From Neptunomonas japonica DSM 18939 (lineage in GTDB: Bacteria; Pseudomonadota; Gammaproteobacteria; Pseudomonadales; Balneatricaceae), in contig NZ_AUGR01000002.1 of assembly GCF_000422765.1 (NCBI RefSeq), forward strand, positions 124,001 through 188,000: a stretch of DNA of 64,000 bases. The letters are read 5' to 3'. Position 1 is the stretch's first letter. Each line of letters opens with the position of its first letter. The notes under the pieces are model-generated. The model was given only the letters and a program-made list of their open reading frames with translations, had not been told where the DNA came from and did no database searches. Below, in pieces: positions 24,426 through 38,777 of this stretch. Position numbers and translations under genes: made by a program.

Positions 24426-25909
24426 TAGAGAGACTCCAAAAAAGTGATTAAATTGTTTCTATCTTGTAGTGGTAGTTGCATGAAACTAGCTTTACTCGCT
24501 TGAGCTTCTCCACCGTGCCAAAGAATGGCTTCGTATAAATTTCTAGCGCGGCCGTCATGCAAAAACTGAGTATGCCGGCTAACGGCTTTTGTTAAGCCTA
24601 CTCCCCACAGAGGTGGAGTGCGCCACTCACGCCCCGATGCCTGAAACTCTGGACGATGGTCAGCCAGCCCTTCGCCCATATCATGTAGTAATAGGTCTGT
24701 GTAAGGCCAGATTACCTGGTTAGCTTGAGCTGCAGGTACATCGCTCGGCGTTTCATAACGAGGTGTATGACAGCGCTGGCAGCCTATTTGTGTAAAGGTA
24801 GCTTGTCCATTAAGGACTGCTGGCGTATGACTATTTCTTCTTTTAGGAACAGCGAGGTTACGTGTGTAAAATTCTATTAAACTCACCATTTGAGCAGATG
24901 CCTCAGCATTATCCAAATGTGCGCTATTACCGTTGGTAAATGACTGGCAGTCAGTTTGTTGTGCGGTGCACTCACCTGCCCCTGAAGGGAACATGGGTGA
25001 TGATATACCAATGTCAGAATGTAGGGCTGCATTATTTTGTTGTAGCAGTGTTGGGTTTCCTGCTTTCCAACCAAAACGCCCTAGAGTGGTTTGTTGTTGC
25101 TGGATATCCCAGACGCGGTTGGCTCGCCCAGAAATACCATCCCCATCGATATCGTTTGGGTCTTCTTTGGCAAGAATGTCTGTTTCGCTGATAGCTGCCA
25201 GTAACCCAAGGCCTATCATCGGGGGAGCGATGCGTGGGGACATCTGTATATTGTTTGGTAGTGGGCCGTAGTTAAGCTGCTCTATTGTATATTCTGGCGC
25301 ACGTAACGAGATTGCACTTTTCTCTGTTGGACTAGGAGCTTCTGTGGATAACTTAATGGGTATTTCGTTATAACGTATTGTTGCTTTTCCTTCAGCAAGC
25401 AGCCCTTGTACCGAAGAATCTTGTAATTGAGTGCCATATGTCGGCTCGGGAACCACGCCAATGAGACCTGCTGCTAAGTCTGCTTTATGTTGTTCTGTTT
25501 GTGCGGGAATGCTTATGCGCATCATCATAGATGCTGCCATGTGGTCGGGATTTTTAGTATTTGTAGGCTGGCCGCGACCATTTCGAATATGGCAACTTAG
25601 GCATGATCGAGCATTATAAAGTGGGCCAAGACCATCGCTAGCCGTTGTCGATGATGGCGAAGACACCCATATTTTCTCAAATAAGCTTTTTCCCAGAACA
25701 AACGAAAGTCGCTCTTCTTGAGTCAGGTTGGCTTGGGGCAATGAAAAAATATGTTTGCTAACCGCAGGTTGAGAGCTGCTGGCGTTCTGAGTAGAGGGCA
25801 AAGGTGCAGCAGCGTACGCTTTAGAAAACAAAGAAAGGTTAGACGCGGTTACTGCTGTAAAAGCAGCAACCGCGCCGATAAGTACCAAGATGAAAAAAGA
25901 TTTTTTCAT
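24425..25909 (-). CDS. Periplasmic di-heme oxidoreductase (DHOR family)
   Basis: A 494-residue exported protein (N-terminal hydrophobic segment, cleavage near KAYA) of the di-heme oxidoreductase family once called thiol oxidoreductases. Seen: two c-type heme motifs, CLSCH near residue 106 and CQRCH near residue 377, plus the family segment DIDGDGISGRANRVWD. Members cluster with imelysins in iron-responsive operons, where oxidation of periplasmic ferrous iron is a common guess. Nine bases separate it from the upstream imelysin gene. Confidence 0.88.
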   Translation of the reverse strand: MKKSFFILVLIGAVAAFTAVTASNLSLFSKAYAAAPLPSTQNASSSQPAVSKHIFSLPQANLTQEERLSFVLGKSLFEKIWVSSPSSTTASDGLGPLYNARSCLSCHIRNGRGQPTNTKNPDHMAASMMMRISIPAQTEQHKADLAAGLIGVVPEPTYGTQLQDSSVQGLLAEGKATIRYNEIPIKLSTEAPSPTEKSAISLRAPEYTIEQLNYGPLPNNIQMSPRIAPPMIGLGLLAAISETDILAKEDPNDIDGDGISGRANRVWDIQQQQTTLGRFGWKAGNPTLLQQNNAALHSDIGISSPMFPSGAGECTAQQTDCQSFTNGNSAHLDNAEASAQMVSLIEFYTRNLAVPKRRNSHTPAVLNGQATFTQIGCQRCHTPRYETPSDVPAAQANQVIWPYTDLLLHDMGEGLADHRPEFQASGREWRTPPLWGVGLTKAVSRHTQFLHDGRARNLYEAILWHGGEAQASKASFMQLPLQDRNNLITFLESL

Positions 25910-25918
25910 GCGCTCGTA

Positions 25919-27190
25919 TTAATTTGCCAATATAGTACTTGGGTTATCTAGGCTATCAGAGCCTTCTAGTTCAATATTGTCTAGCTTTAATACACGCATC
26001 GCTTTTTCAATTGAACGAGTTTGTGTTGTGAGAGCGTCAACAGTTTTCTGTACGACAGCATTACCTGCTTGGTTACCGCTGGCGATCAGTACATCAAATG
26101 TATTGCCCATGCCTGCTTGGTCAACCATTGCTTGCATAGCCGCTTCTGTAGCATCTAACTCTGCACGTAATTGCTGATCAACTTCAGATGATTCAGCACG
26201 TACCATTGACGATAGGCTTGGCCCTTTAACGACACTGCCATCAACGCGAGTGTATTCGCCGAGGTAAACGTTTTTAATCCCTTTGGCATCAAAGTAGTGT
26301 GAGTTATGAGTGTTATCTGAGAAGCAATCATGTTCTTCTTCAGGGTCATGCAGCATTAAACCAAGCTTTATACGCTCCCCTGCTAGTTCTCCATAAGAGA
26401 GGCTGCCCATACCACTAAGGATAGTAGCGAGTGCTTGGTTATCACTTTTAGCGGCCAACTCTTTACGCGCCGCACCGCCGTCTTTCCAGTTGTTTGCCAT
26501 CTCTTCTAGATCGGTAATTAGCAGTGTTGTAACCGCACTTAGGTATTCACGACGACGCTCACAGCTGCCACCCGTGCAGTCTGTTAGGCTGTAATCAGTT
26601 ACTGGGCGGATGCCTGCCCCTTTTTCTGTGCCATTAAGGTCTTGGCCCCATAATAAAAACTCAATAGCGTGGTAGCCAGTCGCAACATTTGCCTCAACAT
26701 CATCAACTTCATGTAATGTCTCGGATAGTAGCTGTGGAGTGATGTGGGTTGCATCAATAGTGGTATTGCCAAGTTTCAGAATAGGGTTGGCAACTACGTT
26801 AGCGGTATACAGTAAATTTTCGTCTGACTCTTCGCCATAACTACCATTGTTAACATAATCGATAAGTCCTTCATCCAAAGGCCATGCATTTACTTTACCT
26901 TCCCACTCATCAACAATCGCGTTGCCAAAACGAAACGCTTCTGTTTGCTGGTAAGGTTCACGAGCATCAATCCATGCTTGCTTGGCTGCATTTAGACTTG
27001 CTTGAGTAGGCGATGCTAACAGCGCATCAATAGATGTTTTGAGCGTTTTAGCTGTGGTAAGGGAGTCGCCATAAGTCGCTTCGGCAATATCACCATATGT
27101 ATCGATAACAGAAGTTGCATTGTTGGCTAGCACTGCACCGCTAATGGTTCCAAGTGCAACTGTGAGTGCTAGTTTTGTAAATGTTTTCAT
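25919..27190 (-). CDS. Imelysin family protein with intact GxHxxE motif
   Basis: A 423-residue exported imelysin (M75 type) with signal peptide ending VLA. Seen: the metal motif GYHAIEFLLWGQD around residues 170-182, and a second imelysin repeat with GELAGERIKLGLMLHDPEEEHDCFSDNTH in separate conserved pieces. The frame is open to 27247, but the ATG at 27190 gives a clean signal peptide and follows AGGAC. First gene of the minus-strand iron cluster; a Fur-box palindrome lies 40 bases upstream. Confidence 0.92.
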   Translation of the reverse strand: MKTFTKLALTVALGTISGAVLANNATSVIDTYGDIAEATYGDSLTTAKTLKTSIDALLASPTQASLNAAKQAWIDAREPYQQTEAFRFGNAIVDEWEGKVNAWPLDEGLIDYVNNGSYGEESDENLLYTANVVANPILKLGNTTIDATHITPQLLSETLHEVDDVEANVATGYHAIEFLLWGQDLNGTEKGAGIRPVTDYSLTDCTGGSCERRREYLSAVTTLLITDLEEMANNWKDGGAARKELAAKSDNQALATILSGMGSLSYGELAGERIKLGLMLHDPEEEHDCFSDNTHNSHYFDAKGIKNVYLGEYTRVDGSVVKGPSLSSMVRAESSEVDQQLRAELDATEAAMQAMVDQAGMGNTFDVLIASGNQAGNAVVQKTVDALTTQTRSIEKAMRVLKLDNIELEGSDSLDNPSTILAN

Positions 27191-27229
27191 TAGAAAAGTC
27201 CTGAGATGAAATTCTTGGATGAAAATATA

Positions 27230-27248
27230 AATGATAAGCGTTATCATT
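27230..27248. promoter_or_regulatory. Fur box
   Basis: AATGATAA-GCG-TTATCATT is a perfect 8-3-8 palindrome matching the core of the Fur consensus (GATAATGATAATCATTATC). It lies between the divergent imelysin and MauG-type genes, close enough to repress both when iron is plentiful. Confidence 0.9.
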
Positions 27249-27270
27249 ACAAACAGTGTTGTTATTTTTT

Positions 27271-28446
27271 ATGAATATTTTCGGAGATGTTACGTTGAGA
27301 ACGGCAAGCGTATTTTTGTTAGCTTCGGTCGCGCTATTCAATATTAGCGCTGTAAATGCAGTTCCAACCCCTTCGCTTGAAAGCTCCCAAGTAGAGAGTC
27401 AAAAAGCAACACTAGGGCAGCAGTTGTTCTTTGATGTTAATTTGTCACAAAATCGAACACAGTCATGTGCGAGCTGCCATGCGCCTGACAAAGGTTTTTC
27501 GGACCATCGCGGTTCAGGTACCGCTTTAGCTGCATCGCTAGGTGATGATGGGAAATCGCTGGGTGATCGCAATGCTCCATCAGCCAGTTATGCCGCGTTT
27601 TCACCGCATTTTCAGAAAACATCAGAGGGTGTTTTTAAAGGTGGACAGTTTTGGGATGGCCGCGCTGATTCTTTAGCGGAACAAGCGGGTGGCCCACCGC
27701 TAAATCCTGGCGAAATGGGGCTAGCAAATAAAGCCAGCACGGCTGCTCGAATACAAGAAAACAGCCAGTACCAAGTAGCTTTTAAAGGCATTTATGGAGA
27801 CGCTATTTTTGAAGATGCAGATAAAGCCTATGCTGCCATGAGCGATGCCATTGCCGCCTTTGAGGAAAGCGAGTTTTTCTCCCCGTTTGATGCCAAATAT
27901 GATCGTTATTTACGCGGCGAGTACCAATTAACACCGCAAGAAGATTTAGGCCGCACCCTTTTCTTCTCCCAGCAGTTCACCAACTGTAACCTTTGTCACC
28001 AATTACGTACCTTGCCAGAGCAGCAAAAAGAAACATTTAGTAACTATGAGTTCCATAACATTGGCGTGCCTGTTAACACAGCATTACGAGCAATTAATGG
28101 CACTACTCAGCTTGACCAGGGTTTGCTTAACCATCCTGACGTAGACGATGTAGCCCAGCGCGGCAAATTTAAAACACCGACACTGCGTAATGTTGCGGTG
28201 ACCGGGCCCTATATGCATAACGGCGTTTTTACCGACTTACGCACCGTTATCCTGTTCTATAACAAATACAACAGCCGTAGTGTAAAACGACAGATCAACC
28301 CAGAAACGGGAGAGCAATGGCGTGAGCCAGAAATTGCGCAAACTCTCTCACGTAAAGAACTGGAAACGGGCCCCGCTTTGGATGATAAGCGTATTGATGC
28401 GCTGGTGGCTTTTTTAAAAACGCTGACTGATAAGAGATATGAATAA
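27271..28446 (+). CDS. Di-heme cytochrome c peroxidase / MauG-type protein
   Basis: About 391 residues, exported (signal peptide ending VNA), of the CCP/MauG family. Seen: two c-heme motifs, CASCH (about residue 71) and CNLCH (about 242), plus FKTPTLRNVAVTGPYMHNGVF near the C-terminal heme. Start choice: the ATG at 27271 lacks a ribosome binding site, whereas a TTG at 27295 has GGAG eight bases before it and still leaves a full signal peptide; either is possible. Divergent from the imelysin operon across a shared Fur box, so probably iron-repressed. Confidence 0.88.
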   Translation: MNIFGDVTLRTASVFLLASVALFNISAVNAVPTPSLESSQVESQKATLGQQLFFDVNLSQNRTQSCASCHAPDKGFSDHRGSGTALAASLGDDGKSLGDRNAPSASYAAFSPHFQKTSEGVFKGGQFWDGRADSLAEQAGGPPLNPGEMGLANKASTAARIQENSQYQVAFKGIYGDAIFEDADKAYAAMSDAIAAFEESEFFSPFDAKYDRYLRGEYQLTPQEDLGRTLFFSQQFTNCNLCHQLRTLPEQQKETFSNYEFHNIGVPVNTALRAINGTTQLDQGLLNHPDVDDVAQRGKFKTPTLRNVAVTGPYMHNGVFTDLRTVILFYNKYNSRSVKRQINPETGEQWREPEIAQTLSRKELETGPALDDKRIDALVAFLKTLTDKRYE

Positions 28447-28543: not shown

Positions 28544-28615
28544 TTTCAGTTTGGTTTCAGCTACGGATTTTAAAGTAGCACCATCACAGCGAAACACGCT
28601 GAATAACTTTAAGGA
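28544..28615 (+). promoter_or_regulatory. Conserved leader, copy 1
   Basis: TTTCAG at 28544-28549 and 28555-28560 (11-bp period), then TTTTAAAGT, then an invariant block from GTAGCACCATCA through the hairpin CAGCG-AAACA-CGCTG, ending in ribosome binding site AAGGA (28611-28615), nine bases before the copy 1 ATG. The 52 bases 28512-28563 are identical to 32433-32484 upstream of copy 2. The repeat geometry is that of OmpR/PhoB-family binding sites; that reading is inference. Confidence 0.8.
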
Positions 28616-28624
28616 AACAACATC

Positions 28625-28915
28625 ATGAAAACTCTACTTACGGCTACTCTTCTTTCTTCTGCTCTTTTCGCTTCACAGGCATTTGCTGCTGGCCTAAGTG
28701 ATTTTTCTGAACACTCGGTTGAAGCTAACCTCGCTGCCGGTCATGTTGCTTCAGCGCAAGGTTTTGCATCCGTTGATAGCCCACTGTCTAACGTAGGAGT
28801 ATCAACAGAAGCACAGCTAGATAACGCTAGTCAGGATATCGTTAGCACTTATGGCAACACTGTTGTATTTGCAGGCTTGATTGCACCGGCTGGATCAACA
28901 GAAGCTCAGCTGTAA
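28625..28915 (+). CDS. Small secreted protein, five-copy family, copy 1
   Basis: A 96-residue exported protein: signal peptide of 21 residues (MKTLLTATLLSSALFASQAFA), mature part about 75 residues starting AGLSDF. No cysteine, no membrane segment after the leader. It shares with four other genes in this window the pattern LSxFxxxSVEAxLAxxH, then QxFxSxxSPLSxxGxSxEAxL, and with copies 2 and 3 the ending VVPAGSTEAQL-like tail. I recognise no known family. The strong ribosome binding site and leader show it is real. Followed by a long hairpin and a convergent outer-membrane protein gene. Confidence 0.9.
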   Translation: MKTLLTATLLSSALFASQAFAAGLSDFSEHSVEANLAAGHVASAQGFASVDSPLSNVGVSTEAQLDNASQDIVSTYGNTVVFAGLIAPAGSTEAQL

Positions 28916-28928
28916 GTTATATCTACAA

Positions 28929-28963
28929 CCTTGAGGCCATAACCGCGTCGTATGGCTTCAAGG
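28929..28963 (+). terminator. Hairpin downstream of copy 1
   Basis: CCTTGAGGCCATA and TATGGCTTCAAGG pair over 13 bases with one G-T pair, around a nine-base loop, 13 bases after the stop. No long T-run follows. It lies between convergent genes and may serve both. Confidence 0.6.
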
Positions 28964-28990
28964 CTCTATTACTTTACGTAACTCTGACTG

Positions 28991-29659
28991 TTAGAAAGAG
29001 TAACTTAGCGCTAATTTCATGCTGTCATAATCAAGTTCGTTAGGATTGATTTTTCCAGGGACTGCAACTTCTGGTAACGGTGAGAAATCTACATCATTAA
29101 TACGTGTGTACTCCCCTTTAACCGACCACTTATCATTGACTGCGTATTCAAAGCCAAGCCCTAGTGTTAGGCCTACTTCGCTTTCGCTGCCGCTGCGCAT
29201 AGGGGGGGCGAATGGGTAACTGTTATGAATATCAAAATCTAAAGCAGTAGCCCCTGCAATACCGTAAACAGAGAACTTATGAGTGACATCTACACCGGCT
29301 TTAAAGTTAACGCCGTAGCTAGATTGCAAATCAATCTTCGTTTGTAGCATGTTGTTGATATTTGTAGTGCTGGCATTTTCATCGTTATAGAAGACTTCAG
29401 CAGCAACAAATACATCATCAGTTACGTGATATTTATAACCAAGGTGCAAACCTATCGCTACATCGCTTTCTTCTGCAAAGCTTGTGATGCTTGGGCTTGT
29501 TGCTAGTCCTGTATTACGTTCAATGCTATGGGACAAAGTAGAGCTTTGAATATGTCCACCTAGGTAAAACCCATCACCTGCTTGTGCTGCATTACTTAAA
29601 CTTGCTGTGGCTAGGGCGGTAGCGACGCTGATACCTAAAATTCTGGCGCTCTTGTTCAT
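28991..29659 (-). CDS. Outer-membrane beta-barrel protein (OmpA-like/Opa family)
   Basis: A 222-residue protein with a signal peptide (cleavage near AQAGD) and alternating beta strands ending in the terminal phenylalanine of LALSYSF, the BAM recognition signature. GFYLGGHIQSS and YKYHVTDDVFVAAEVFY are typical strands of the 8-stranded Opa/OmpX type barrel. No OmpA C-terminal peptidoglycan domain. It faces copy 1 of the small secreted family and diverges from the two-component genes; a link to either is only positional. Confidence 0.85.
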   Translation of the reverse strand: MNKSARILGISVATALATASLSNAAQAGDGFYLGGHIQSSTLSHSIERNTGLATSPSITSFAEESDVAIGLHLGYKYHVTDDVFVAAEVFYNDENASTTNINNMLQTKIDLQSSYGVNFKAGVDVTHKFSVYGIAGATALDFDIHNSYPFAPPMRSGSESEVGLTLGLGFEYAVNDKWSVKGEYTRINDVDFSPLPEVAVPGKINPNELDYDSMKLALSYSF

Positions 29660-30048
29660 GTTATTTTTCCTTAGGTTGGTTGTTGCGCGTCTTTGCTACC
29701 ACAAATCAATTGAAGGGGATTGTTTAGAGTAGCTGCACGAATTATGTTTAGTCTTTTTAAATCACCGTTACTGGCTAAGCGCAGTTTACGGGGGGTTATG
29801 CACAAAGTTATCGCAGCAGTCTTCTGTGTTTGTGGTAAATCTATCTGTGATTAATAACAGCTTGGGATAATGTTGGCTTCGATGTGATATTTAAGCTTTT
29901 ATTGTGAGAGTTTCGTGATATTTAGCAGGTAGAATCTTAATAAACGCTCATGTAAAGCGTGTAGTTCGTAAGGAAAATAGAGTGCTACTGGTTTAACTCT
30001 GTTGATATTGCAGGCAACCATTTTGACATGGTGGGTTCAAAGCTATTT
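29660..30048. promoter_or_regulatory. Divergent intergenic region between the barrel protein and the response regulator
   Basis: 389 bases with no credible gene. It should hold both promoters. GGATAATG near 29866 could be a plus-strand -10, but no matching -35 is evident. The TTTCAG direct repeat that marks the small secreted genes is not present here. Confidence 0.4.
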
Positions 30049-30762
30049 ATGGAAAACAAAAAAATACTGATTGTCGAAGATCAGGATGATATTGCAGGAT
30101 TACTGACATTGCACTTTACTGACCTGGGCGCTGAGGTTACACACGTGTCTGATGGGCATGAAGGGTTACGCCTTTCCAGTTCTGTGGAATGGGACCTGCT
30201 TATCCTCGATATCCAACTGCCGGGTCCATCTGGATTAGAAATTTGTAGAAATGTTAGGCGCAATGTTGGTTATGTACCTATTTTGCTACTAACATCGCGC
30301 TCGAGTGAGCTTGATCGTGTTTTAGGACTCGACCTAGGTGCAGATGATTATGTGACTAAGCCCTTTAGTGTCATGGAGCTTATCTCCCGCGTTAAAGCTA
30401 TTTTTCGGCGCGTGAGTGCTATGCAAAAAGTGATACCGCAAACGGCGAGCATTATTCGCATTGGTGACCTCTGTATTGATGAAGAGCTGCACCAAGTAAC
30501 ACTCGCTGAGAAAGTTATTGATTTAACGGCACGCGAGTTTGATCTGTTGCTGCATTTTGCTAACCAACCAGGGCGTGTCTTTCGTCGCTCCGAGCTACTT
30601 GATGGCGTTTGGGGTTACGGTCATGATGGTTATGAACATACCGTTAATTCACACATTAATAGGTTACGCTCAAAAATTGAAGAAGACCCGAACAACCCAA
30701 ATATCATTGTCACAGTATGGGGTGTTGGTTATAAACTGGATTCACAAAGGCTCGCCTCATGA
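30049..30762 (+). CDS. OmpR-family response regulator
   Basis: About 237 residues: receiver domain (residues 1-120) with acidic pocket Glu10-Asp11, phosphoacceptor Asp54 in LLILDIQLPG, the conserved threonine in LLLTSRS and lysine in YVTKPFS, then a winged-helix trans_reg_C domain (about 140-235, ending TVWGVGYKL). An ATG seven codons upstream (30028) is also possible; MENKKILIVED is the more usual start. It overlaps the kinase gene by four bases (ATGA). Placed between copies 1 and 2 of the small secreted family, whose leaders carry 11-bp direct repeats of the type this family binds. Confidence 0.93.
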   Translation: MENKKILIVEDQDDIAGLLTLHFTDLGAEVTHVSDGHEGLRLSSSVEWDLLILDIQLPGPSGLEICRNVRRNVGYVPILLLTSRSSELDRVLGLDLGADDYVTKPFSVMELISRVKAIFRRVSAMQKVIPQTASIIRIGDLCIDEELHQVTLAEKVIDLTAREFDLLLHFANQPGRVFRRSELLDGVWGYGHDGYEHTVNSHINRLRSKIEEDPNNPNIIVTVWGVGYKLDSQRLAS

Positions 30763-32372
30763 GAACCACCGCTACAGTGGCGACGTCACCCCCTTCAGCT
30801 GAAGATTACTCGATGAAGCGTGGTATCACAAGTACGCTCAGCTCCCGCCTTTCCATTGCGGTAATTATGATAGTGATTGCCGTTGGTATGTGCGTGATGG
30901 CGGCGAGTCAGGCGTGGATGAGGATATATTACGAAGAGTTGACGCAAAAACTGAATGCCAGTATTGCCATGTATATTACGGGTGAATATCAGCTAATACA
31001 GGGCGCTGAAGGTTTACCTAACGTCGCTGCAATTCAATCTTTGGCGAACCAAGCTATGATTATCAACCCGATAGCAGAGGTTTATTTACTCGATATTGAC
31101 GGAAAAATCATAGCGCACGCCCTACCGCCTGAAACCAACGTGCAAGCGGCGGTTCCACTAGAACCTATAAAACAGTTTTTGGCTGGTGACACAACATTTC
31201 CTATTCGTGCCAGTGATCCACGCCATATAGGCATTGATAAGATATTTTCAGCAGCTGAAATACGTTATACCGATACACTACAAGGCTACCTGTATGTCGT
31301 TCTTGGAAGCGAGGTTTACGATGGTATTGAGGATGGCATACAAAGCAGTTATAGCCGTTCGATGATACTGGTGACTATCCTTGTGATTACATTGGCTGCT
31401 GCGGTCATAGGAGTCCTTATTTTTAACCTGTTAGTGCGGCGTCTGAATAAGTTAAGTCACAAAATGCATGGCTTTAGTGAGTTAACATTAGATGCTCGGC
31501 TGTTTGATGTTAAAGAGCTTAAGCCCCAATCTTCTAATGATGAAATTGATCTACTGACGCTCACCTTTGAACGGATGTCGACAAAGATTCGCCGCCAACT
31601 TGAGATGCTTAGTGATGCGGATGAAGTTAGGCGAGAACTTATTTCTAATGTATCTCATGATTTGCGTACCCCACTGTCTACCGTGCAAGGATATCTTGAA
31701 ACGCTGCTGATTAAGAATGGACAGCTTACAGAGGCGCAGAGGCTCGAATACTTAAATACTGCTATGAAAAGCTCTCAGCGGCTTGGGCAATTAATTGGAG
31801 ACTTGTTTGAGTTGTCCAAACTGGAGTCTACACATGTAGTACCTAACTTCGAGCAGTTCTCTTTGGCTGAGTTGATCTTCGATATTATTCAGGAGTTTAG
31901 TTTGGAGGTGAGTGCTAAAAATATTCATATTGATGTACGCAACGACCAACATAATGCAGTCGTTTTCGCTGATATTAGCTTGATTCAGCGGGTGTTTGAG
32001 AATCTTATCCGTAATGCGATCGCCTACACGCCTGATAATGGAGAAATACTTTTTCTCATAGAAGCGACAGAGCACAGTGCTGCTGAAAGTGAAGGCAAAA
32101 ATACCGCTAAAACTTTAGGTAGTTGTATAAAAGTAAGCGTTGTTGATACAGGGCGTGGAATTAAGGAAGAAGACTTACCTTTTATCTTTGATCGTTTTTA
32201 TATCAATCCTGACTACAGCCGGGAAGATACGCATTCGACAGGTTTAGGGTTAGCAATAGTAAAACGCATACTCGACTTACATGACACCAGTATTCAAGTG
32301 CAAAGTACACTTAATCAGGGCTCTCGATTTATATTTTCTCTGCCAAGGACTAGCGCCGCTTTAATGTCATAG
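30759..32372 (+). CDS. Membrane sensor histidine kinase
   Basis: A 537-residue kinase. Seen: first membrane helix about residues 32-52, an extracytoplasmic sensor of about 150 residues (PAS/Cache-like by size, with INPIAEVYLLDIDGKI), second helix about 205-230, HAMP, a HisKA domain with phosphoaccepting His300 in SNVSHDLRTPL, and a HATPase domain with N box NLIRNAIAYTP, G1 VVDTGRGI and G2 STGLGLAIVK. It is coupled to the response regulator. The first 18 residues before MKRGIT may not be translated if an internal ATG is used. Confidence 0.93.
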   Translation: MRTTATVATSPPSAEDYSMKRGITSTLSSRLSIAVIMIVIAVGMCVMAASQAWMRIYYEELTQKLNASIAMYITGEYQLIQGAEGLPNVAAIQSLANQAMIINPIAEVYLLDIDGKIIAHALPPETNVQAAVPLEPIKQFLAGDTTFPIRASDPRHIGIDKIFSAAEIRYTDTLQGYLYVVLGSEVYDGIEDGIQSSYSRSMILVTILVITLAAAVIGVLIFNLLVRRLNKLSHKMHGFSELTLDARLFDVKELKPQSSNDEIDLLTLTFERMSTKIRRQLEMLSDADEVRRELISNVSHDLRTPLSTVQGYLETLLIKNGQLTEAQRLEYLNTAMKSSQRLGQLIGDLFELSKLESTHVVPNFEQFSLAELIFDIIQEFSLEVSAKNIHIDVRNDQHNAVVFADISLIQRVFENLIRNAIAYTPDNGEILFLIEATEHSAAESEGKNTAKTLGSCIKVSVVDTGRGIKEEDLPFIFDRFYINPDYSREDTHSTGLGLAIVKRILDLHDTSIQVQSTLNQGSRFIFSLPRTSAALMS

Positions 32373-32464
32373 CAGGTGATGGATGAGTTGTTAGGTGTAT
32401 GCTTTGTGAGCGAGTTAAGTGAAAAGGTTTTAATAACAAAAGATTTTTAAAATAAGTTTTCTTA

Positions 32465-32537
32465 TTTCAGTTTGGTTTCAGCTAGTGGTTTTAAAGTAGC
32501 ACCATCAACAGCGAAACACGCTGAACCACTTTAAGGA
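32465..32537 (+). promoter_or_regulatory. Conserved leader, copy 2
   Basis: TTTCAG at 32465-32470 and 32476-32481, then TTTTAAAGT, the invariant GTAGCACCATCA block, CAGCG-AAACA-CGCTG hairpin, and AAGGA at 32533-32537. Same order and nearly the same spacing as the other four leaders; distance from second TTTCAG to the ATG is 71 bases. Confidence 0.8.
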
Positions 32538-32546
32538 AACGACATT

Positions 32547-32834
32547 ATGAAAACTTTACTGACTACTGCTCTTCTTTCTTCTGCTCTTTTCGCTTCACAG
32601 GCATTTGCCGGTGGTTTAAGCCATTTTGATACTCAGTCTGTTGAAGCTAACCTAGCTACAGGCCATGCATCTACTGCTCAGGGATTTGCCTCTGTTAGCA
32701 GCCCACTGTCTGATCTAGGCGCATCTGTAGAGGCTCACTTGGCAGGTAGCAACAACCTAGTCAGTACTTATAGCAACACAATTGCGCTAACAGGTTTAGT
32801 CGTACCGGCTGGATCAACAGAAACACAGCTTTAA
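32547..32834 (+). CDS. Small secreted protein, five-copy family, copy 2
   Basis: A 95-residue exported paralogue (leader MKTLLTTALLSSALFASQAFA, mature part begins GGLSHF). Closest to copy 3 in the mature region (QGFASVSSPLSDLGAS, LVSTYSNT, PAGSTE). No cysteine. It begins 174 bases after the histidine kinase stop but has its own complete leader, so it is probably transcribed separately. A strong terminator follows. Function unknown. Confidence 0.9.
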   Translation: MKTLLTTALLSSALFASQAFAGGLSHFDTQSVEANLATGHASTAQGFASVSSPLSDLGASVEAHLAGSNNLVSTYSNTIALTGLVVPAGSTETQL

Positions 32835-32881
32835 TTTCTTATTAGAGAGGCGTGCCCTCCCTCAATTAACACAGACCTTTT

Positions 32882-32927
32882 GCCGCTAATTATTCTAATT
32901 AATTTAGAACAATTCAGCGGCTTTTTT
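32882..32927 (+). terminator. Rho-independent terminator after copy 2
   Basis: GCCGCTAATT pairs with AATTCAGCGGC (one bulge) around an AT-rich loop and is followed by six T. A degenerate GAGAGG/CCTCCC hairpin at about 32845-32862, nearer the stop, resembles the hairpins after copies 3 and 4. Confidence 0.8.
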
Positions 32928-32979
32928 GTAGGGCGTTAAACGCTCAAACTATTGTACGAGTGCATCTAAACATCCTCTG

Positions 32980-34020
32980 CTATAGCTGACCTTTGGCTAG
33001 CTGCTTCGTCAGTTCCGCTGCTGGTATCTCTTTACACCCTGTCGCATTTTGCCCGCACCACAATGGTGAAAAATCACCGCTGCCATTGGTTTCGGCTTTT
33101 GAGCGCAGCGCAGTAATAGCCGTTGTCGCTAATGGGAATTCAGGCGTGCTATTACTAATAGGACCTATTTCTCTAATAACACGGTTAACGATACTACGAG
33201 CCGGCCTACCTGAGAAAAGGTTAGTAAGAGCGGTGTGTTGTGCCGAGGGGCTTTTCAGTGCTGCGCGGTGAACCTTGCTGGTTTTTGTTTCTGGGCAAAG
33301 TAGATAAGCGGTACCCACTTGCACCGCTGCTGCGCCAATAGATAGTGCCGCTGAAACACCGTTAGCATCGGCAATACCGCCAGCAGCAATAACAGGAATA
33401 TTTACGGCCTGAGCAATTTGAGGCAGTAACGAAAAAGTACCTATTTGTGTGGTGATATCATCAGATAAAAAGATTCCTCTATGCCCACCGGCTTCTAGCC
33501 CTTGTGCAATGATGGCATCGGCACCATTTGCCTCAAGCCATAGGGCCTCTTCAACGGTTGTTGCCGATGAAATTACCTTGGCGCCCCAGTTTTTAACGCG
33601 TTCGATTAAATCTTGTGATGGTAAACCAAAGTGAAAGCTCACGACGGGTGGGCGAAACTCTTCAATGATATCGGCAATGTCATGGGAAAACGGTGCGCGG
33701 CCAGGGCCTGCTGGAATCTCGTCAGCATTGATTTTATATTCACTAAAGTAAGGTTGTAGCGCGTTGCGCCAAATACCTTCACGTTCTGTGCTCACATGAG
33801 GAGGCGTGTGACAAAAGAAATTCACATTAAAAGGTTTACTGGTCTTTGTAGTAATGGCGGTTAGTTCGCTACGAATCATGTCAGGTGTAAGCATGGCGCA
33901 AGGTAACGAGCCTAACCCCCCAGCGTGAGATACAGCAATGGCCAACTCGCTCCCTTGTACTCCAGCCATAGGTGCTTGAATAATAGGTAATTCAATGCCT
34001 AATAAATCCTTGATATTCAT
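32980..34020 (-). CDS. Nitronate monooxygenase family FMN protein
   Basis: A 346-residue TIM-barrel flavoprotein of the nitronate monooxygenase / 2-nitropropane dioxygenase family. Seen: the N-terminal PIIQAPMAGVQGSELA, VSFHFGLP, GADAIIAQGLEAGGHRG with the catalytic-type His, and the phosphate-binding PVIAAGGIADANGV and GAAAVQVGTAYL. Such enzymes oxidise alkyl nitronates or reduce quinones. Last gene of a minus-strand trio with a CHMI-like protein and a HAD phosphatase. Confidence 0.9.
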   Translation of the reverse strand: MNIKDLLGIELPIIQAPMAGVQGSELAIAVSHAGGLGSLPCAMLTPDMIRSELTAITTKTSKPFNVNFFCHTPPHVSTEREGIWRNALQPYFSEYKINADEIPAGPGRAPFSHDIADIIEEFRPPVVSFHFGLPSQDLIERVKNWGAKVISSATTVEEALWLEANGADAIIAQGLEAGGHRGIFLSDDITTQIGTFSLLPQIAQAVNIPVIAAGGIADANGVSAALSIGAAAVQVGTAYLLCPETKTSKVHRAALKSPSAQHTALTNLFSGRPARSIVNRVIREIGPISNSTPEFPLATTAITALRSKAETNGSGDFSPLWCGQNATGCKEIPAAELTKQLAKGQL

Positions 34021-34067
34021 ATTTCTTATTCGCCTCTTGCTATTATGTTTCCTGATGATTAACGCAT

Positions 34068-34409
34068 TTACAGTACAGCTTTAGCGTAGGAAGACTTTTC
34101 CATATTACAGACTTCAACTGTTAATGAGACTTCTGATAATTCTATTGCTTGAAGCTCTTTTAAAATGGCTTCAGATAGGTTGCAGCGTTGCTCGATGGTT
34201 CGGCCGGATAAAATTTTTAAGGTTACGTGAACAAACTCTTGTTGCTTCGAGCCCGTTTGATAGTGCTTATAGCAGAGCGCTCGGATCTTAATGTCTGCCT
34301 CTGTAAACAATCTAGAAGAGAGTGCACCTTGAAAAACGGCATTAATCAAATCTGCTGGGGCTGTCGATGCTTCTAAACCTTCAGAATATTCAATAATACA
34401 GTGTGGCAT
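34068..34409 (-). CDS. 5-carboxymethyl-2-hydroxymuconate isomerase family protein
   Basis: A 113-residue member of the tautomerase superfamily (CHMI type). The N-terminus MPHCIIEYS exposes the catalytic Pro after methionine removal, the family hallmark, and KILSGRTIEQR is also typical. The family acts in homoprotocatechuate degradation, but no other genes of that pathway are nearby, so the substrate is open. 17 bases downstream of the HAD gene and 47 upstream of the nitronate monooxygenase-like gene. Confidence 0.85.
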   Translation of the reverse strand: MPHCIIEYSEGLEASTAPADLINAVFQGALSSRLFTEADIKIRALCYKHYQTGSKQQEFVHVTLKILSGRTIEQRCNLSEAILKELQAIELSEVSLTVEVCNMEKSSYAKAVL

Positions 34410-34426
34410 GAGAGGGCCCTAAATAA

Positions 34427-34900
34427 TTATGTTACTACGTATAACTCACGCAAACAGCGGATAGTCCTCACCTCTTGTGAGGGCGGCTGATTGTTATCTG
34501 GAGCAAACCAGACGGGTGTAATCCCTACGCTAAGCGCTGGCTTTATATCCTTTGTATAGCTGTCGCCCACCATGATGACCTGTGAAGCGGGAATATCTAA
34601 TTGCTTTAAAATTGCATTGAAAAAGTCAGGAGACCCTTTGGGTACTCCCAAATTTTCTGTACAAAAGTACCCAGTAATATACGGGTTTAACCCAGCGCGT
34701 TGGAAGGCCTTTATTATATCTTTTTCAGATGAATCAGCAGCACCTGTCGCTAGATATATGGGGGCATCTTTAGAGAGTTGTGCCAATGTTTCTTCTGCAC
34801 CAGTAATCGCTTCTACATGATCCCAGTTACACATTTTTCCGCTAGCATCAGGGAAGTCTACCATCAAGGTATCTCCCCAATCGAATAGGTAAGTTGTCAC
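34427..34900 (-). CDS. Small HAD-superfamily hydrolase
   Basis: A 157-residue HAD phosphatase. Seen: motif I YLFDWGDTLM with the nucleophile and acid/base aspartates (DWGDT), motif II YLATGA, motif III lysine near LGVPKGSPDFF, and motif IV VGDSYTKDI. There is almost no cap domain, which suggests a large or accessible substrate. First gene of the trio; its start faces the copy 3 leader. Confidence 0.87.
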   Translation of the reverse strand: MTTYLFDWGDTLMVDFPDASGKMCNWDHVEAITGAEETLAQLSKDAPIYLATGAADSSEKDIIKAFQRAGLNPYITGYFCTENLGVPKGSPDFFNAILKQLDIPASQVIMVGDSYTKDIKPALSVGITPVWFAPDNNQPPSQEVRTIRCLRELYVVT

Positions 34901-34975
34901 TACGATAGCCTCCTTGTCATGTGTATTGTTGGGTCTAATAGACTAGTAAAAAATAATTCAATAATGTTTTTCTTA

Positions 34976-35048
34976 TTTCAGTTTGGTTTCAGCTAGTAGT
35001 TTTAAAGTAGCACCATCAACAGCGAAACACGCTGAACTACTTTAAGGA
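34976..35048 (+). promoter_or_regulatory. Conserved leader, copy 3
   Basis: TTTCAG at 34976-34981 and 34987-34992, TTTTAAAGT, invariant block, CAGCG-AAACA-CGCTG hairpin and AAGGA at 35044-35048. In this copy the outer sequences TTAAAGTAG and CTACTTTAA are perfectly complementary over nine bases and would enclose the inner hairpin if both were transcribed, with the pairing running into the ribosome binding site. Confidence 0.8.
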
Positions 35049-35055
35049 AATGACC

Positions 35056-35346
35056 ATGAAAACTATATTAACGACTGCTCTACTTTCTTCTGCGCTTATC
35101 GCTTCACAGGCATTTGCTGGTGGTTTAAGTGATTTTTCTGCTCAGTCTGTTGAAGCTAACTTAGCTTCAAATCATGCAGTAACGGCTCAGGGTTTTGCTT
35201 CTGTTAGCAGTCCGTTATCTGACTTAGGTGCTTCTGTTCAAGCGCATTTGGGTAATGCTAATAACAACCTAGTCAGCACTTACAGTAATACAGTAGCGTT
35301 TACAGGTTTAGTTGTACACGCAGGGTCAACTGAAGCTCAGCTTTAA
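35056..35346 (+). CDS. Small secreted protein, five-copy family, copy 3
   Basis: A 96-residue exported paralogue (leader MKTILTTALLSSALIASQAFA, mature part GGLSDF). An in-frame ATG two codons upstream (35050) is only one base from AAGGA, so the ATG at 35056, seven bases away, is the start. Mature region closest to copy 2; the tail reads VVHAGSTEAQL. No cysteine. Stand-alone gene between a HAD hydrolase and a Sel1 protein. Confidence 0.9.
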   Translation: MKTILTTALLSSALIASQAFAGGLSDFSAQSVEANLASNHAVTAQGFASVSSPLSDLGASVQAHLGNANNNLVSTYSNTVAFTGLVVHAGSTEAQL

Positions 35347-35353
35347 GGAATAT

Positions 35354-35372
35354 TGGGAGGCTTAGCCTCCCA
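35354..35372 (+). terminator. Hairpin downstream of copy 3
   Basis: TGGGAGGC-TTA-GCCTCCCA, perfect 8-bp stem, eight bases after the stop. No T-run. Nearly the same hairpin follows copy 4, so it appears to have been duplicated with the gene. Confidence 0.6.
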
Positions 35373-35390
35373 TTAGTATATGTAAATCCT

Positions 35391-36284
35391 TTACCAGCCC
35401 GCTTGTTGCTTAACCGTTAAAGCAGGTCTAAAGTTTTGTGCTGCAGACTTTAAAGTTAGCTCTTTTGCTTTGTTCATATCTTTAGTAACCGCTTCACCAC
35501 TTGCATACATTTGGCCAAGCCAGAACTGGGCCGCTGCATGATTATTTTTTGCTAAGGCCTGATAAATTTTTGCTGCTTTGGCTTTATTCTGTTTAGTTCC
35601 ATAGCCATTTGAAAGCATGTAAGCATACTCAAATTGAGCCGATGCATTTTTTTTAGTCGCTGCAATTTCAAAATTATCGAATGCTCTCTTAAACCAGTAA
35701 TGGGATTTTTTTTGGTTTTTTTCAATCCCCTCATAACCACCTCTATACCAGTAAGCAATTTTCTTTTGAGCCATGGGGTTATTGTCGTGTGCTGACTTTA
35801 GCATCCACTTTTCAGCTAAAGGTACATTTTTAGTAACGCCATCACCCCGTATTAGCCGAATTGAATAGTCAAATTTGGCATGTTTATGCCCTGCTTTTGC
35901 TGCCAGTCTAAATAGGGACGTTGCTTGTTTAGTATCCTTTGTTACACCAATGCCTGCGGCATAGTTGTGCCCTAATGTATGCAAAGCATCGGGGTGTTTT
36001 TTATTCGCCGCTATCACTAGATATTCTTTAGCCTTACGCTTATCTATAGTAGTGCCAATTCCATTCGTATATAAAAGATAGAGTAAATATGATGAATGTA
36101 TATGGCCTTTATCTGAGGCGATAATAAGGTGTTCAAGAGCCTTTTGGGGGTGGCGGTTTGCACGATCAAGGTAACTAATACCTTTTTTATATAAAGAGTC
36201 AGCTGATAATGAAGGGTCTATTGTTGCAGAATTTACATATAAAGGAATTAGACAGAGGAATATAATAAAACGTAAATACTGCAT
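35391..36284 (-). CDS. Secreted Sel1-repeat protein
   Basis: A 297-residue protein with a signal peptide (cleavage near VNSAT) and about six Sel1-like repeats, each a pair of helices with the pattern A-x-x-x-Y-x-x-G-x-G-V-x-K-D, for instance HTLGHNYAAGIGVTKDTKQA and WLGQMYASGEAVTKDMNKA. Sel1 repeats mediate protein-protein contacts in the periplasm. Gene stands alone; partner unknown. Confidence 0.88.
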   Translation of the reverse strand: MQYLRFIIFLCLIPLYVNSATIDPSLSADSLYKKGISYLDRANRHPQKALEHLIIASDKGHIHSSYLLYLLYTNGIGTTIDKRKAKEYLVIAANKKHPDALHTLGHNYAAGIGVTKDTKQATSLFRLAAKAGHKHAKFDYSIRLIRGDGVTKNVPLAEKWMLKSAHDNNPMAQKKIAYWYRGGYEGIEKNQKKSHYWFKRAFDNFEIAATKKNASAQFEYAYMLSNGYGTKQNKAKAAKIYQALAKNNHAAAQFWLGQMYASGEAVTKDMNKAKELTLKSAAQNFRPALTVKQQAGW

Positions 36285-36638
36285 AATATAACCCCTTTTC
36301 TTTTAAATATTTAAGCTAGAAACACAATATGAGTGTTACTAAAAGCATATTTTTATAAAAGTTATTTAAGGACTATAAAAGCAGCAGGTTTTATTATCAA
36401 TAAAAGCAATGAAAAATTCAGGTAAAAAGTAGCTATGAAATAGTATTATTTTAATTTTTTCTGCTATTAATTAAGAATCATTGCTAATTAAAATACGGTT
36501 TCTATTCGTTTTTTTGATTAGTTCTAATAATATAAAATATTTTTAAAATTGTTTTATTATTTCAGCTTGGTTTCAGGTACAGGTTTTAAAGTAGCACCAT
36601 CACAGCGAAACACGCTGAATAACTTTAAGGAAACCACC
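36285..36638. other. AT-rich intergenic region
   Basis: 354 bases, notably AT-rich from 36300 to 36555, with no open frame that looks coding. The right end is the copy 4 leader. The richness in A and T may simply reflect promoter and spacer sequence. Confidence 0.5.
36560..36631 (+). promoter_or_regulatory. Conserved leader, copy 4
   Basis: TTTCAG at 36560-36565 and 36571-36576 with spacer CTTGG instead of TTTGG, then TTTTAAAGT, the invariant GTAGCACCATCA block, CAGCG-AAACA-CGCTG hairpin and AAGGA at 36627-36631. The leader is better conserved than the protein it precedes. Confidence 0.8.
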
Positions 36639-36926
36639 ATGAAAGCTTTACTGACAACCGCTTTTCTTGCCTCCGCTCTTTTCACTTCTCAGGCGTTTGC
36701 CGGTGGCCTAAGTGACTTTTCTACACAGTCTGTTGAAGCAACGCTAGCCGCAGACCATGTTACTTCAACACAGGTTTTTATCTCAGTTGATAGCCCGCTG
36801 TCTGATTTAGGAACGTCAGTTGAAGCACAGTTAAGTAACGATAATCACAGTACTGTTAATACTAGGAGTTACAATTTTTTAGCGGGCTTGGATGTACCAG
36901 CTCAGTCACAAGAAACTTTGCTATAA
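36639..36926 (+). CDS. Small secreted protein, five-copy family, copy 4 (divergent)
   Basis: A 95-residue exported paralogue (leader MKALLTTAFLASALFTSQAFA, mature GGLSDFSTQSVEATLA). The central part (SPLSDLGTSVEAQL) is kept, but the tail differs: the STYSNT and AGSTEAQL segments are replaced by NTRSYNFLAGLDVPAQSQETLL in shorter pieces. The frame continues upstream to 36549, but the ATG at 36639 is fixed by AAGGA and the signal peptide. No cysteine. Confidence 0.88.
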   Translation: MKALLTTAFLASALFTSQAFAGGLSDFSTQSVEATLAADHVTSTQVFISVDSPLSDLGTSVEAQLSNDNHSTVNTRSYNFLAGLDVPAQSQETLL

Positions 36927-36972
36927 GTGCTGAGTATTTAACGTAATTTTGTTTTAAATATGGTGCTTAAAA

Positions 36973-36994
36973 AATGGGAGGCTTGCCTCCCATT
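36973..36994 (+). terminator. Hairpin downstream of copy 4
   Basis: AATGGGAGGC and GCCTCCCATT form a perfect 10-base inverted repeat (effective loop CTTG). Same core as the copy 3 hairpin; no T-run follows. Confidence 0.6.
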
Positions 36995-37040
36995 GTTACA
37001 TTGATTGTCCAGCACAACCTCCTTGTTCTACACACTTCTA

Positions 37041-37277
37041 TCAATCTTTCCAAAACGGTTTATCCACTTCTTGTTGAGCTTCTCCAGCGCTGAAACCGAT
37101 ATCTTTTAATTGATAACTACTAAGTTGGGATAACTGTTGGCGGGTTCTCCAGTTCATATGCCAGTGCTGCAGGCATTCTTTCCAGCGTTGTATGTTTTGT
37201 TGTAACAGTGCTGCGAATGTTGCATTTTGGGCCTCGTTTGACACGGCTTTTCTTAAGCATAGGTCGTTAGTGTTCAT
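37041..37277 (-). CDS. DUF1127 (YjiS-like) small protein
   Basis: A 78-residue cytosolic protein with a C-terminal DUF1127 motif: WRTRQQLSQLSSYQLKDIGFS, then AQQEVDKPFW. Proteins with this domain have been implicated in RNA binding and nutrient-phosphate or carbon responses in alphaproteobacteria; here the role is unknown. It is divergent from a GcvA-type LysR gene 156 bases away, a recurrent pairing that suggests the LysR protein controls it. Confidence 0.87.
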   Translation of the reverse strand: MNTNDLCLRKAVSNEAQNATFAALLQQNIQRWKECLQHWHMNWRTRQQLSQLSSYQLKDIGFSAGEAQQEVDKPFWKD

Positions 37278-37433
37278 GGCTATTCCTCATTTATGATCAA
37301 GTTTATCTACGTTATAGAATGCAGAAATGCTGTTTTTCAGCTCATGAGGTTATTTTTAAGGAATGTGTTGCAGGCGACAAACGAGTAATTCGTTAGTATG
37401 ATTAAGAAAATCTTATCTATATTGTGATCGCTT

Positions 37434-38372
37434 ATGAATAGGCTTCCTTCACTGAAAGCGCTTCAGGCCTTTTATTACGCTGCGCAAGATCAGAGCTTTA
37501 AACAGGCAGCTGAACGTTTGCATGTAACACAAGCCGCTATTAGCCAGCAGATTAAAACCTTAGAGCAGCAGCTTGGAGTGTCGCTGTTCAAGCGTTTAAC
37601 ACGTGAGGTGGTATTAACGCCGGAGGGTGTGCAGCTTTTACCTTTTGTTAATAAGGCTTTTGCTTTGCTTGAGCAAGGAGTGGCTGAACTTGGGCAGGAC
37701 GCTCAGCCAAACAGGTTAACGTTGAGTGTTCTACCCTCATTTGCCGGGCGCTGGCTAGTACCAAGATTGGGTGTGTTCCAACAGCACTGCCCTGAGCTTA
37801 TTATTCATTTGACGCCAAGCTTAAAGCTAGACTCTTTCGAGGCCAATGATCTTGACCTAGCGGTACGTTTTGGCCAGGGTAAATACCCCGGATTGAGTTC
37901 ACGGCTATTACAAAAAGAGTATTTATTACCGGTTTGTCATCCGTCGCTGCTTGATAATTCGCTGCCAATTGCCGAACAATTAATAGAGCTGCCGTTGTTA
38001 GCTGATGATGCTCCCGATATGAAACTAGTCTGGCCCCAGTTTGAGCAGGCGTTGGGCATGCCTTTACCGCAAAACACAACGCGCTTGTATGTGTCTGACT
38101 CTACAATGCTTGTTGAGGCATTATTAAGCGGTCAAGGCTTTGCGATGCTGCGCTTTAGTTTGGCGTATGAGCTGCTACAACGTGGGCAATTAATTTGCCC
38201 TCTTCCTATCTATATTAAATCTATTTATGACTATTACTTAGTAGCCCCCGAGTCTTATTTTAAACGTCCTAAGGTTGTACAATTTGAGGGGTGGATACGG
38301 CAAGAGATTAAGGAAATAGATCATAGTTGGCAGCAGTTTACTGGGCTCTCAACTGAAGGTGACCATGCTTAA
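37434..38372 (+). CDS. LysR-family transcriptional regulator (GcvA-like)
   Basis: A 312-residue LysR regulator: N-terminal helix-turn-helix (LPSLKALQAFYYAAQDQSFK onwards, residues 4-63) with the GcvA-type start, then a substrate-binding domain from about residue 90 (LSVLPSFAGRWLVPRL). Divergent from the DUF1127 gene, its probable target. The effector is not known. Copy 4 and copy 5 of the small secreted family flank this pair. Confidence 0.92.
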   Translation: MNRLPSLKALQAFYYAAQDQSFKQAAERLHVTQAAISQQIKTLEQQLGVSLFKRLTREVVLTPEGVQLLPFVNKAFALLEQGVAELGQDAQPNRLTLSVLPSFAGRWLVPRLGVFQQHCPELIIHLTPSLKLDSFEANDLDLAVRFGQGKYPGLSSRLLQKEYLLPVCHPSLLDNSLPIAEQLIELPLLADDAPDMKLVWPQFEQALGMPLPQNTTRLYVSDSTMLVEALLSGQGFAMLRFSLAYELLQRGQLICPLPIYIKSIYDYYLVAPESYFKRPKVVQFEGWIRQEIKEIDHSWQQFTGLSTEGDHA

Positions 38373-38410
38373 TTACATATAACTAAAATAATATTAAAAA
38401 TGTTTTCTTA

Positions 38411-38482
38411 TTTCAGTTTGGTTTCAGCTACAGCTTTTAAAGTAGCACCATCACAGCGAAACACGCTGAACAACTTTAAGGA
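38411..38482 (+). promoter_or_regulatory. Conserved leader, copy 5
   Basis: TTTCAG at 38411-38416 and 38422-38427, then CTTTTAAAGT, the invariant block, CAGCG-AAACA-CGCTG hairpin and AAGGA at 38478-38482. Second TTTCAG to ATG is 68 bases, as in copy 4. Confidence 0.8.
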
Positions 38483-38489
38483 AAACACC

Positions 38490-38777
38490 ATGAAAACTTT
38501 ACTAACGACTGCTCTTCTTTCTTCAGCTCTTTTCGCTTCACAGGCATTTGCCGGTGGTTTAAGTGACTTTTCTACTCAGTCTGTTGAAGCTAACCTAGCT
38601 GCAGGCCATGTCGTAACAGCACAAGGCTTTGAGTCTGCTAGCAGCCCACTGTCTACCTTAGGCGTATCTAAAGAAGCGCATTTAGGTGGTGGTCATCACA
38701 GCAACGTAACCCAGGCACATAACGACGCTGTTGTGAGCTTTGGTTTAGACGTTCCAGCACACTCTAGCGAAGCTTAG
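38490..38777 (+). CDS. Small secreted protein, five-copy family, copy 5 (divergent tail)
   Basis: A 95-residue exported paralogue (leader MKTLLTTALLSSALFASQAFA, identical to that of copy 2). The N-terminal mature half is typical (GGLSDFSTQSVEANLAAGH), but the C-terminal part is changed to a His-containing segment GGGHHSNVTQAHNDA and a tail ending PAHSSEA, lacking the terminal QL. No cysteine. The ATG at 38490 is set by AAGGA eight bases upstream, although the frame is open to 38400. Confidence 0.88.
   Translation: MKTLLTTALLSSALFASQAFAGGLSDFSTQSVEANLAAGHVVTAQGFESASSPLSTLGVSKEAHLGGGHHSNVTQAHNDAVVSFGLDVPAHSSEA

Follow-up and report, generated by a model that had tools for sequence, protein, structure and literature searches.

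What holds together a set of near-identical small secreted proteins whose genes stand apart from one another, and what might switch them on? The question is raised by a 64,000-nucleotide stretch of the Neptunomonas japonica DSM 18939 genome (contig NZ_AUGR01000002.1; hereafter "the window," C2:124001-188000 of genome G000, which comprises 4.39 Mb in 39 contigs), in which an original prediction, made from the sequence alone, had described a five-copy family between positions 28544 and 38777. Here, we report that the family has ten members in this genome and that each is preceded by a promoter-like box, which also stands before a two-component operon and before operons for copper-binding ribosomally synthesized and post-translationally modified peptides (RiPPs). 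The shared promoter, the five additional copies, and the link to these operons go beyond the original prediction. Taken together, the evidence argues strongly that a single autoregulated stress system of the PepSY type stands behind the ten genes, which would be the largest group among its predicted targets.

A ten-copy secreted family and its promoter

All five open reading frames were confirmed on the plus strand at the predicted starts, with 95 to 96 residues, near-identical 21-residue signal peptides, and cysteine-free mature parts. Their paralogy was borne out by a whole-genome search in which copy 1 retrieved the other four at E values of 2.7e-34 to 2.1e-24. The count of five holds for the window but not for the genome: a check of the remaining sequence, which had been proposed with the prediction, found five more copies, and the search as a whole returned ten members (E 3.4e-54 to 1.5e-22) and an eleventh row, at E 0.74, that is not a member.

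From the window and 17 fetched loci we collected 40 family open reading frames in six of the eight Neptunomonas genomes; alignment A1 holds 27 of these and the composition set 38 (two from locus L048 were dropped). The family was found in 6 of 57 genomes, all six of them Neptunomonas. When 116 family-level genomes were searched with the 27-member alignment, confident matches (E 1e-12 or better) came only from G000, G001, G002, G004, G005, and G006. Outside the genus there were weak matches only, the best at E 1.8e-5 in G076, and no family-like open reading frame or TTTCA-N6-TTTCA site was seen in the four weak-match loci inspected (L058-L061). Loss of the open frames in close relatives, raised at the outset as a possible objection, is real to a small extent only: two of the eight Neptunomonas genomes (G003 and G007) gave no match in the alignment search, and signs of decay are one chimeric or truncated copy in G006 and a 55-amino-acid fragment left in G001.

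The family is under purifying selection, as the ratio of nonsynonymous to synonymous substitution over the whole gene (dN/dS, Nei-Gojobori) was 0.09 to 0.32, and hence below 1, in all 11 pairs; the selected function that had been argued from the retained paralogues thus gains support. No domain had been recognized, and none emerged: Pfam and NCBIfam gave sub-threshold hits only for all five window proteins, PHROGs gave none at 0.01, and a PDB sequence search with the family profile gave one hit, at E 0.14. The family appears undescribed and, among the genomes covered here, restricted to Neptunomonas. Nothing on it turned up in the open-access literature, in queries that covered the genus name in part and the box sequence not at all, so absence from print is not established.

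The best-conserved part of each unit is its promoter, TTTCAG-N5-TTTCAG-N10-TAnnnT, with hexamers 11 bp apart. Across the 21 pairs formed by seven copies from G000, the promoter and leader (~90 bp) are 87 to 94% identical, compared with 73 to 100% for the signal-peptide DNA, 59 to 91% for the mature DNA, 35 to 84% for the 60 bp past the stop, and 39 to 60%, as aligned, for the DNA 100 to 250 bp upstream. The repeated unit covers box and gene and does not extend into the neighbors. As originally proposed, the copies do not form one operon; they are separate units, each with a ribosome-binding site and a box of its own, and the first base of the reported feature, 28544, is also the first base of the copy 1 box.

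In G000, TTTCAG-N5-TTTCAG occurs at 14 exact sites and its reversed control at 2. Ten of the 14 sites precede family copies; one each lies before the two-component operon, a YHS-domain gene, and a bufferin operon, and the last, in C22, we take as chance. The stricter TTTCAGTTTNNTTTCAG was present in seven of the eight Neptunomonas genomes, and its reversed control was found in none of the eight. The fetched loci contain 121 distinct sites, and in 109 of them TAnnnT lies exactly 10 nt past the box (81 of 88 exact-box sites and 28 of 33 one-mismatch sites), against at most 8 at any other offset. The pattern behind these counts skips one-mismatch variants at the hexamer C or A (e.g., three TTTAAG sites and the G003 site, which is without a -10 element), and the 33 are therefore not all such sites. 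Because sites were collected by the box alone, the -10 element is separate evidence, within the limit that sites related by orthology or paralogy do not count as independent. An OmpR/PhoP-type regulator can take the place of the -35 element, and promoters of this OmpR/PhoB-activated kind have direct repeats 11 bp apart at a fixed distance from the -10 element. The promoter here is as expected for an activator of this type, whose binding is predicted.

A candidate regulator outside the window

One two-component operon, on contig C1, carries the box at its own promoter. Its first gene encodes a small secreted protein of 106 amino acids with two cysteines and three S-x-E-x-[NQH]-[ML] segments; the others encode a PepSY protein, a PhoP/PmrA-like response regulator, and a PhoQ-like kinase. 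In locus L076 the PepSY-regulator-kinase module was recognized as adjacent PF03413 (31.0 bits against a cut-off of 24), PF00072 plus PF00486, and HATPase_c genes. The NCBIfam models nearest to the regulator are RppA, PmrA, QseB, and PhoP, and PhoQ comes first for the kinase, all below cut-off; the best PDB sequence match of the kinase is the PhoQ catalytic domain. This likeness to PhoP/PhoQ and PmrA/PmrB extends to the promoter, with its 11-bp direct repeats and fixed -10 distance, but the scores of the C1 pair fall far under the NCBIfam equivalog cut-offs for PhoP/PhoQ proper (167.3 against 336 for the regulator, 161.7 against 497 for the kinase), and TTTCAG is, to our knowledge, not a PhoP or PmrA half-site. 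The kinase sensor, aligned from 18 of 30 loci (six near-duplicates and six without a kinase frame at the given coordinates were left out), was modeled with a predicted local distance difference test (pLDDT) score of 84.9, and a PDB search for structural matches to it, such as a PhoQ-like sensor fold, gave a best E of 0.015 and nothing at 0.001 or better.

The regulator and the box keep company across genomes. A regulator orthologue (83 to 100% identity) is present in seven of the eight Neptunomonas genomes, and the C1-type operon is boxed in all seven; the box departs from the exact form by one mismatch in G001 and G005 but not in G000, G002, G004, G006, and G007. The eighth, G003, where the next best match reaches 46%, is without regulator orthologue, exact box, and family alike. 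Among the 116 genomes, a kinase close to that of C1 (E of at most 1e-149, 39 genomes) and the strict box (27 genomes) coincide in 26; 13 have the kinase only, 1 the box only (G084, 71% complete), and 76 neither (Fisher p 3.3e-15, uncorrected for relatedness). Four of the kinase-only genomes have a degenerate box before the operon with the -10 element in place, at one mismatch in G065, G069, and G014 and at two in G009.

The window contains a two-component pair of its own (30028-32372), an OmpR-type regulator and a kinase that adjoin copy 2 and end ~175 bp before it, and this pair could in principle be the regulator instead. We regard that as highly improbable and set the pair aside: none of the 14 boxes in G000 precedes its genes, the 20 loci searched held distant matches only (25 to 35% identity), and it is the C1 system that carries the box and tracks it across genomes. 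It is very probable, given the promoter layout and this co-occurrence, that the direct repeats are binding sites of the C1 regulator, through which it activates each copy individually; this would make the family part of its regulon. The C1 kinase and regulator would sense envelope stress and also activate their own operon via the box, while binding of the regulator to the TTTCAG repeats 5' of each copy would switch on the ten units singly.

Described systems offer partial parallels. The DbfQRS system of Vibrio cholerae (VC1638/VC1639 region) likewise keeps a small PepSY protein, a response regulator, and a kinase together, and is reported to respond to lipopolysaccharide defects, polymyxin B, and thymol (PMC12714742). 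Kinase VC1639 controls VCA0732/SipA, described in two reports as periplasmic and antimicrobial-peptide binding (PMC5636140, PMC6370654). Control of a small periplasmic protein by such a kinase resembles the link predicted here for C1, in a comparison by description only. SipA, however, is a single gene of another family, whereas here ten copies without a Pfam match stand behind an explicit direct-repeat promoter alongside copper-RiPP operons; the SipA/YgiW family was absent among Pfam hits up to E 10 for the five window proteins. In enterobacteria, the DUF1471 group (BhsA/McbA/YdgH) consists of multi-copy small secreted stress proteins, and both sets include several short exported paralogues scattered over one genome. 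The family nevertheless has no Pfam match to DUF1471, and we know of no single shared promoter box for that group.

Copper-RiPP operons behind the box and possible roles

The box also precedes genes for secreted copper-RiPP precursors. A DUF2282 bufferin (BufA1 type) gene with an MNIO maturase gene follows it in G000, G004, G006, and G007, and follows a one-mismatch box in G001; the G006 bufferin promoter has three hexamers in a row, and the G000 maturase scores 316.8 against the BufB cut-off of 310. In genus g15, similar-looking MNIO genes stand behind the box in L125, L131, and L136 (L125, the sole one scanned, scored 317.3 against 310), and an EGKCG-repeat precursor plus an MNIO gene does so in five genomes (L126, L127, L201, L203, and L204). 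L126, the sole one of these five scanned, reached 66.8 against 19.5 for the HvfA domain model and 435.4 against 360 for HvfB, with an HvfA equivalog score of 59.4 that lies below its cut-off of 95. In genus g8, L211 combines a BufA2 precursor (123.4 against 60) with BufB (387.3 against 310). Thus, in different genera, three secreted copper-RiPP precursor classes stand under the box: bufferin (BufA1), BufA2, and HvfA type. The box lies before a YHS-domain operon in G000, G001, and G006 (with one mismatch in G004 and G007), and in G000, G001, and G007 a one-mismatch box lies before a cytochrome P460/YHS pair. The same stress-sensing system seems to switch on copper-binding peptides too, to judge from the common promoter.

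Bufferins sequester copper in the periplasm, according to PMC12452194. The family shares with the bufferin/oxazolin operons (BufA1/DUF2282, BufA2, HvfA, and MNIO maturases), which encode secreted metal-binding stress peptides, its promoter but not their cysteines: none of 38 mature parts contains one, which excludes the family from the MNIO-modified metallophores of these kinds. Met and Trp are likewise absent from every mature part, Lys and Arg are absent altogether from 23 of the 38, and Asp/Glu average 6.8 and His 2.9, with no invariant His or Cys that would mark a conserved metal site. S/T-x-E/Q-x-x-L/F/M segments number three per protein in 30 members and two in 8. The proteins are predicted, from their signal peptides, to be exported, and the mature parts are acidic and probably disordered. 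An AlphaFold prediction from 27 sequences, a check proposed with the original prediction, gave a mean pLDDT of 49.6 and was unusable.

Envelope stress from membrane-active agents or metals, especially copper, is moderately likely as the trigger; metal or membrane damage is the signal expected from the DbfQRS analogy and the copper-RiPP company. The acidic, nearly Lys/Arg-free mature proteins would then soak up cationic or metal agents, with copy number supplying the dose, a step argued from company and charge only. We therefore propose only weakly that the mature proteins are abundant periplasmic or extracellular binders of cationic or metal toxicants, and put the whole chain, from regulon to binder function, at somewhat short of an even chance. 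If the first part holds, an orphan secreted family gains a promoter, a candidate regulator, and conditions under which its induction can be tested, and three periplasmic copper-binding RiPP classes become tied by promoter to one PepSY-type two-component system.

Several observations weigh against this account. Twelve of the 121 box sites are without a -10 element, and some sites in other genera (L202, L206, and L207), also without it, precede other kinds of genes. The strict box is missing from 13 of the 39 kinase-bearing genomes, one of which, G024, has no box within two mismatches, and related genomes and sites lie behind the statistics, which are uncorrected for kinship. G007 has both regulator and box but no family member. 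A specific copper site is hard to reconcile with proteins that have no Cys, no Met, and no conserved His. The report on DbfRS (PMC12714742) does not contain the word copper and describes the system as not responding to iron.

The best rival to a binder role is that the proteins are feedback ligands whose S/G-x-E-x-[HNQ]-[LM] segments bind the sensor of their own kinase or the PepSY protein, copy number setting the gain. A three-segment secreted protein does head the operon beside the PepSY gene in several Neptunomonas genomes, and the DbfS sensor domain of V. cholerae is reported to be bound by the PepSY protein DbfQ (PMC12714742); in G005, however, the operon begins directly with the PepSY gene, and ten copies are many for such a peptide. 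The motif itself cuts both ways. Among 13 box-linked small secreted proteins, 7 carry the pattern [GSTP]-x-E-x-[HNQ]-[LMF], with 14 occurrences in all (shuffle mean, 0.42), but the pattern was composed after these proteins had been viewed. In a held-out set of 12 box-linked proteins, the strict form [ST]-x-E-x-[HNQ]-[LMF] occurs twice, both in one protein, a count reached by 79 of 5000 shuffles and not clearly enriched, whereas the core E-x-[HNQ]-[LMF] occurs 9 times in six proteins (shuffle mean, 1.39; 0 of 5000 shuffles), at a density of 9.5 per 1000 residues compared with 0.74 in 41 long open reading frames of the window; it is absent from the other six, and it too was picked after the proteins had been viewed. 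A short motif shared among box-linked proteins is suggestive, no more, and we consider the feedback role unlikely.

Less probable again is a structural or surface role, with abundant proteins of a matrix, vesicle, or amyloid-like kind coating the envelope during stress. Their sulfur-free, cheap composition, the strong-looking promoter, ribosome-binding site, and terminator of each copy, and a low-confidence AlphaFold model such as disorder would give are all compatible with this, but no matrix or amyloid family of Pfam or NCBIfam matches the proteins, and each has only two or three segments. The original prediction had also speculated about antagonistic or signaling peptides. Conservation of promoter and signal with a more variable mature part, and replacement of the product lineage by lineage, would fit secreted peptides of this kind; selection, though, is purifying rather than diversifying in all 11 pairs, and the proteins are acidic, free of Cys, and in 23 of 38 cases free of Lys and Arg. 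No pointer to an antagonistic set was found, with no dedicated search for receptor, immunity, processing, or export genes, and we think an antagonistic or signaling role very unlikely.

A broader and more tentative proposal, which we consider possible rather than probable, is that one conserved sensor-regulator and a near-invariant promoter drive exchangeable small secreted proteins, which would work beside the copper RiPPs as periplasmic stress effectors or feedback peptides of a class not yet described. Each lineage would fill the promoter with its own multi-copy, often repeat-bearing product, such as S-x-E-A-x-L proteins in six Neptunomonas genomes, PL-x-APKD proteins in a seventh, and others in further genera, many of which would share a related E-x-[HNQ]-[LM] segment. 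Regulon wiring would thereby be kept while the most numerous product is replaced lineage by lineage, and proteins that bind toxicants or feed back on the sensor would be a new kind of stress effector.

Feature coordinates, surroundings, and other box-linked genes

Table 1. Positions of the family copies, their control elements, and the candidate regulator (window numbering unless a contig is named)
Feature	Position	Strand	Basis or remark
Box TTTCAG-N5-TTTCAG, copy 1	28544-28560	+	With -10 spans 28544..28576
-10 element TAAAGT, copy 1	28571-28576	+	Starts 10 nt past the box
Leader inverted repeat CAGCG-AAACA-CGCTG, copy 1	28587-28601	+	Perfect; 5' of ribosome-binding site
Family copy 1, 96 amino acids	28625..28915	+	Open reading frame and genome search
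Box, copy 2	32465-32481	+	With -10 at 32492-32497
Family copy 2, 95 amino acids	32547..32834	+	Open reading frame and genome search
Box, copy 3	34976-34992	+	With -10 at 35003-35008
Family copy 3, 96 amino acids	35056..35346	+	Open reading frame and genome search
Terminator-like hairpin GGGAGGCTTAGCCTCCC, 3' of copy 3	35355..35371	+	Fold of 70 nt past stop
Box, copy 4, one mismatch to strict pattern	36560-36576	+	With -10 at 36587-36592
Family copy 4, 95 amino acids	36639..36926	+	Open reading frame and genome search
Box, copy 5	38411-38427	+	With -10 at 38438-38443
Family copy 5, 95 amino acids	38490..38777	+	Open reading frame and genome search
Family copies outside the window	C2:115687 (minus); C4:97959, 99997, 100889, 220293		Whole-genome search
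Two-component operon, outside the window	G000:C1, ~189.0-191.9 kb		Own box at promoter

The leader inverted repeat of copy 1 recurs in copies 2 to 5 at the same place, just 5' of the ribosome-binding site, and is absent from the three C4 copies at 98 to 101 kb, which belong to another subfamily; its form makes control at the RNA level possible. G+C-rich hairpins similar to that of copy 3 lie 3' of most copies in G000 and are strong in most, judged by 70-nt folds past the stop, with a weak fold only (-7.4) after copy 2. In copy 5 the C-terminal motif ends two residues earlier than usual.

Genes named by eye as imelysin-like, di-heme cytochrome-like, and MauG-like (23298-28446) precede copy 1, and their homologues adjoin family copies in G001 and G004, the MauG-like gene also in G006. 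Between copies 1 and 2 lie an outer-membrane beta-barrel gene (PF13505) and the in-window two-component pair (28991-32372). In G001, a family copy directly follows the MauG-like gene, and no close counterpart of the beta-barrel gene or the pair was found at that locus, as if the 28991-32372 genes had been inserted or deleted between copies of the family; recombination among the copies would account for the arrangement.

ArsS-type radical SAM genes were considered as further targets. An ArsS-type arsenosugar gene with a conserved one-mismatch box occurs in G000, G001, and G007 (L184, L189, and L199; TIGR04167 450.8 against 300 in L184), and these genes are not counted as targets because TAnnnT at +10 is missing. 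A protein of 87 to 95 amino acids that starts MCSxPK stands behind the box in two genera (L181:1190-1471 in G006, L194 in G004, and L132 in G063); the one scanned had no Pfam or NCBIfam match, and the -10 element is present in L181 and L194 and absent in L132.

Other small secreted proteins also stand behind the box. In genera g9 and g8 these are tandem proteins of ~67 to 74 amino acids, several with SVEQSQLG, and box-linked proteins of 49 to 75 amino acids in g8 carry EGHM, EGHL, EVQM, or EVHL. The operon head in G007 is a 215-amino-acid secreted protein with six PL-x-APKD repeats (L113:277-921), and a second gene of this type under the box is interrupted by a contig end (L196). On the minus strand of L217 (G083), a 314-amino-acid secreted protein with several tandem IDHWGKSVYDYQ-like repeats is encoded behind a one-mismatch box, upstream of the kinase of the same locus.

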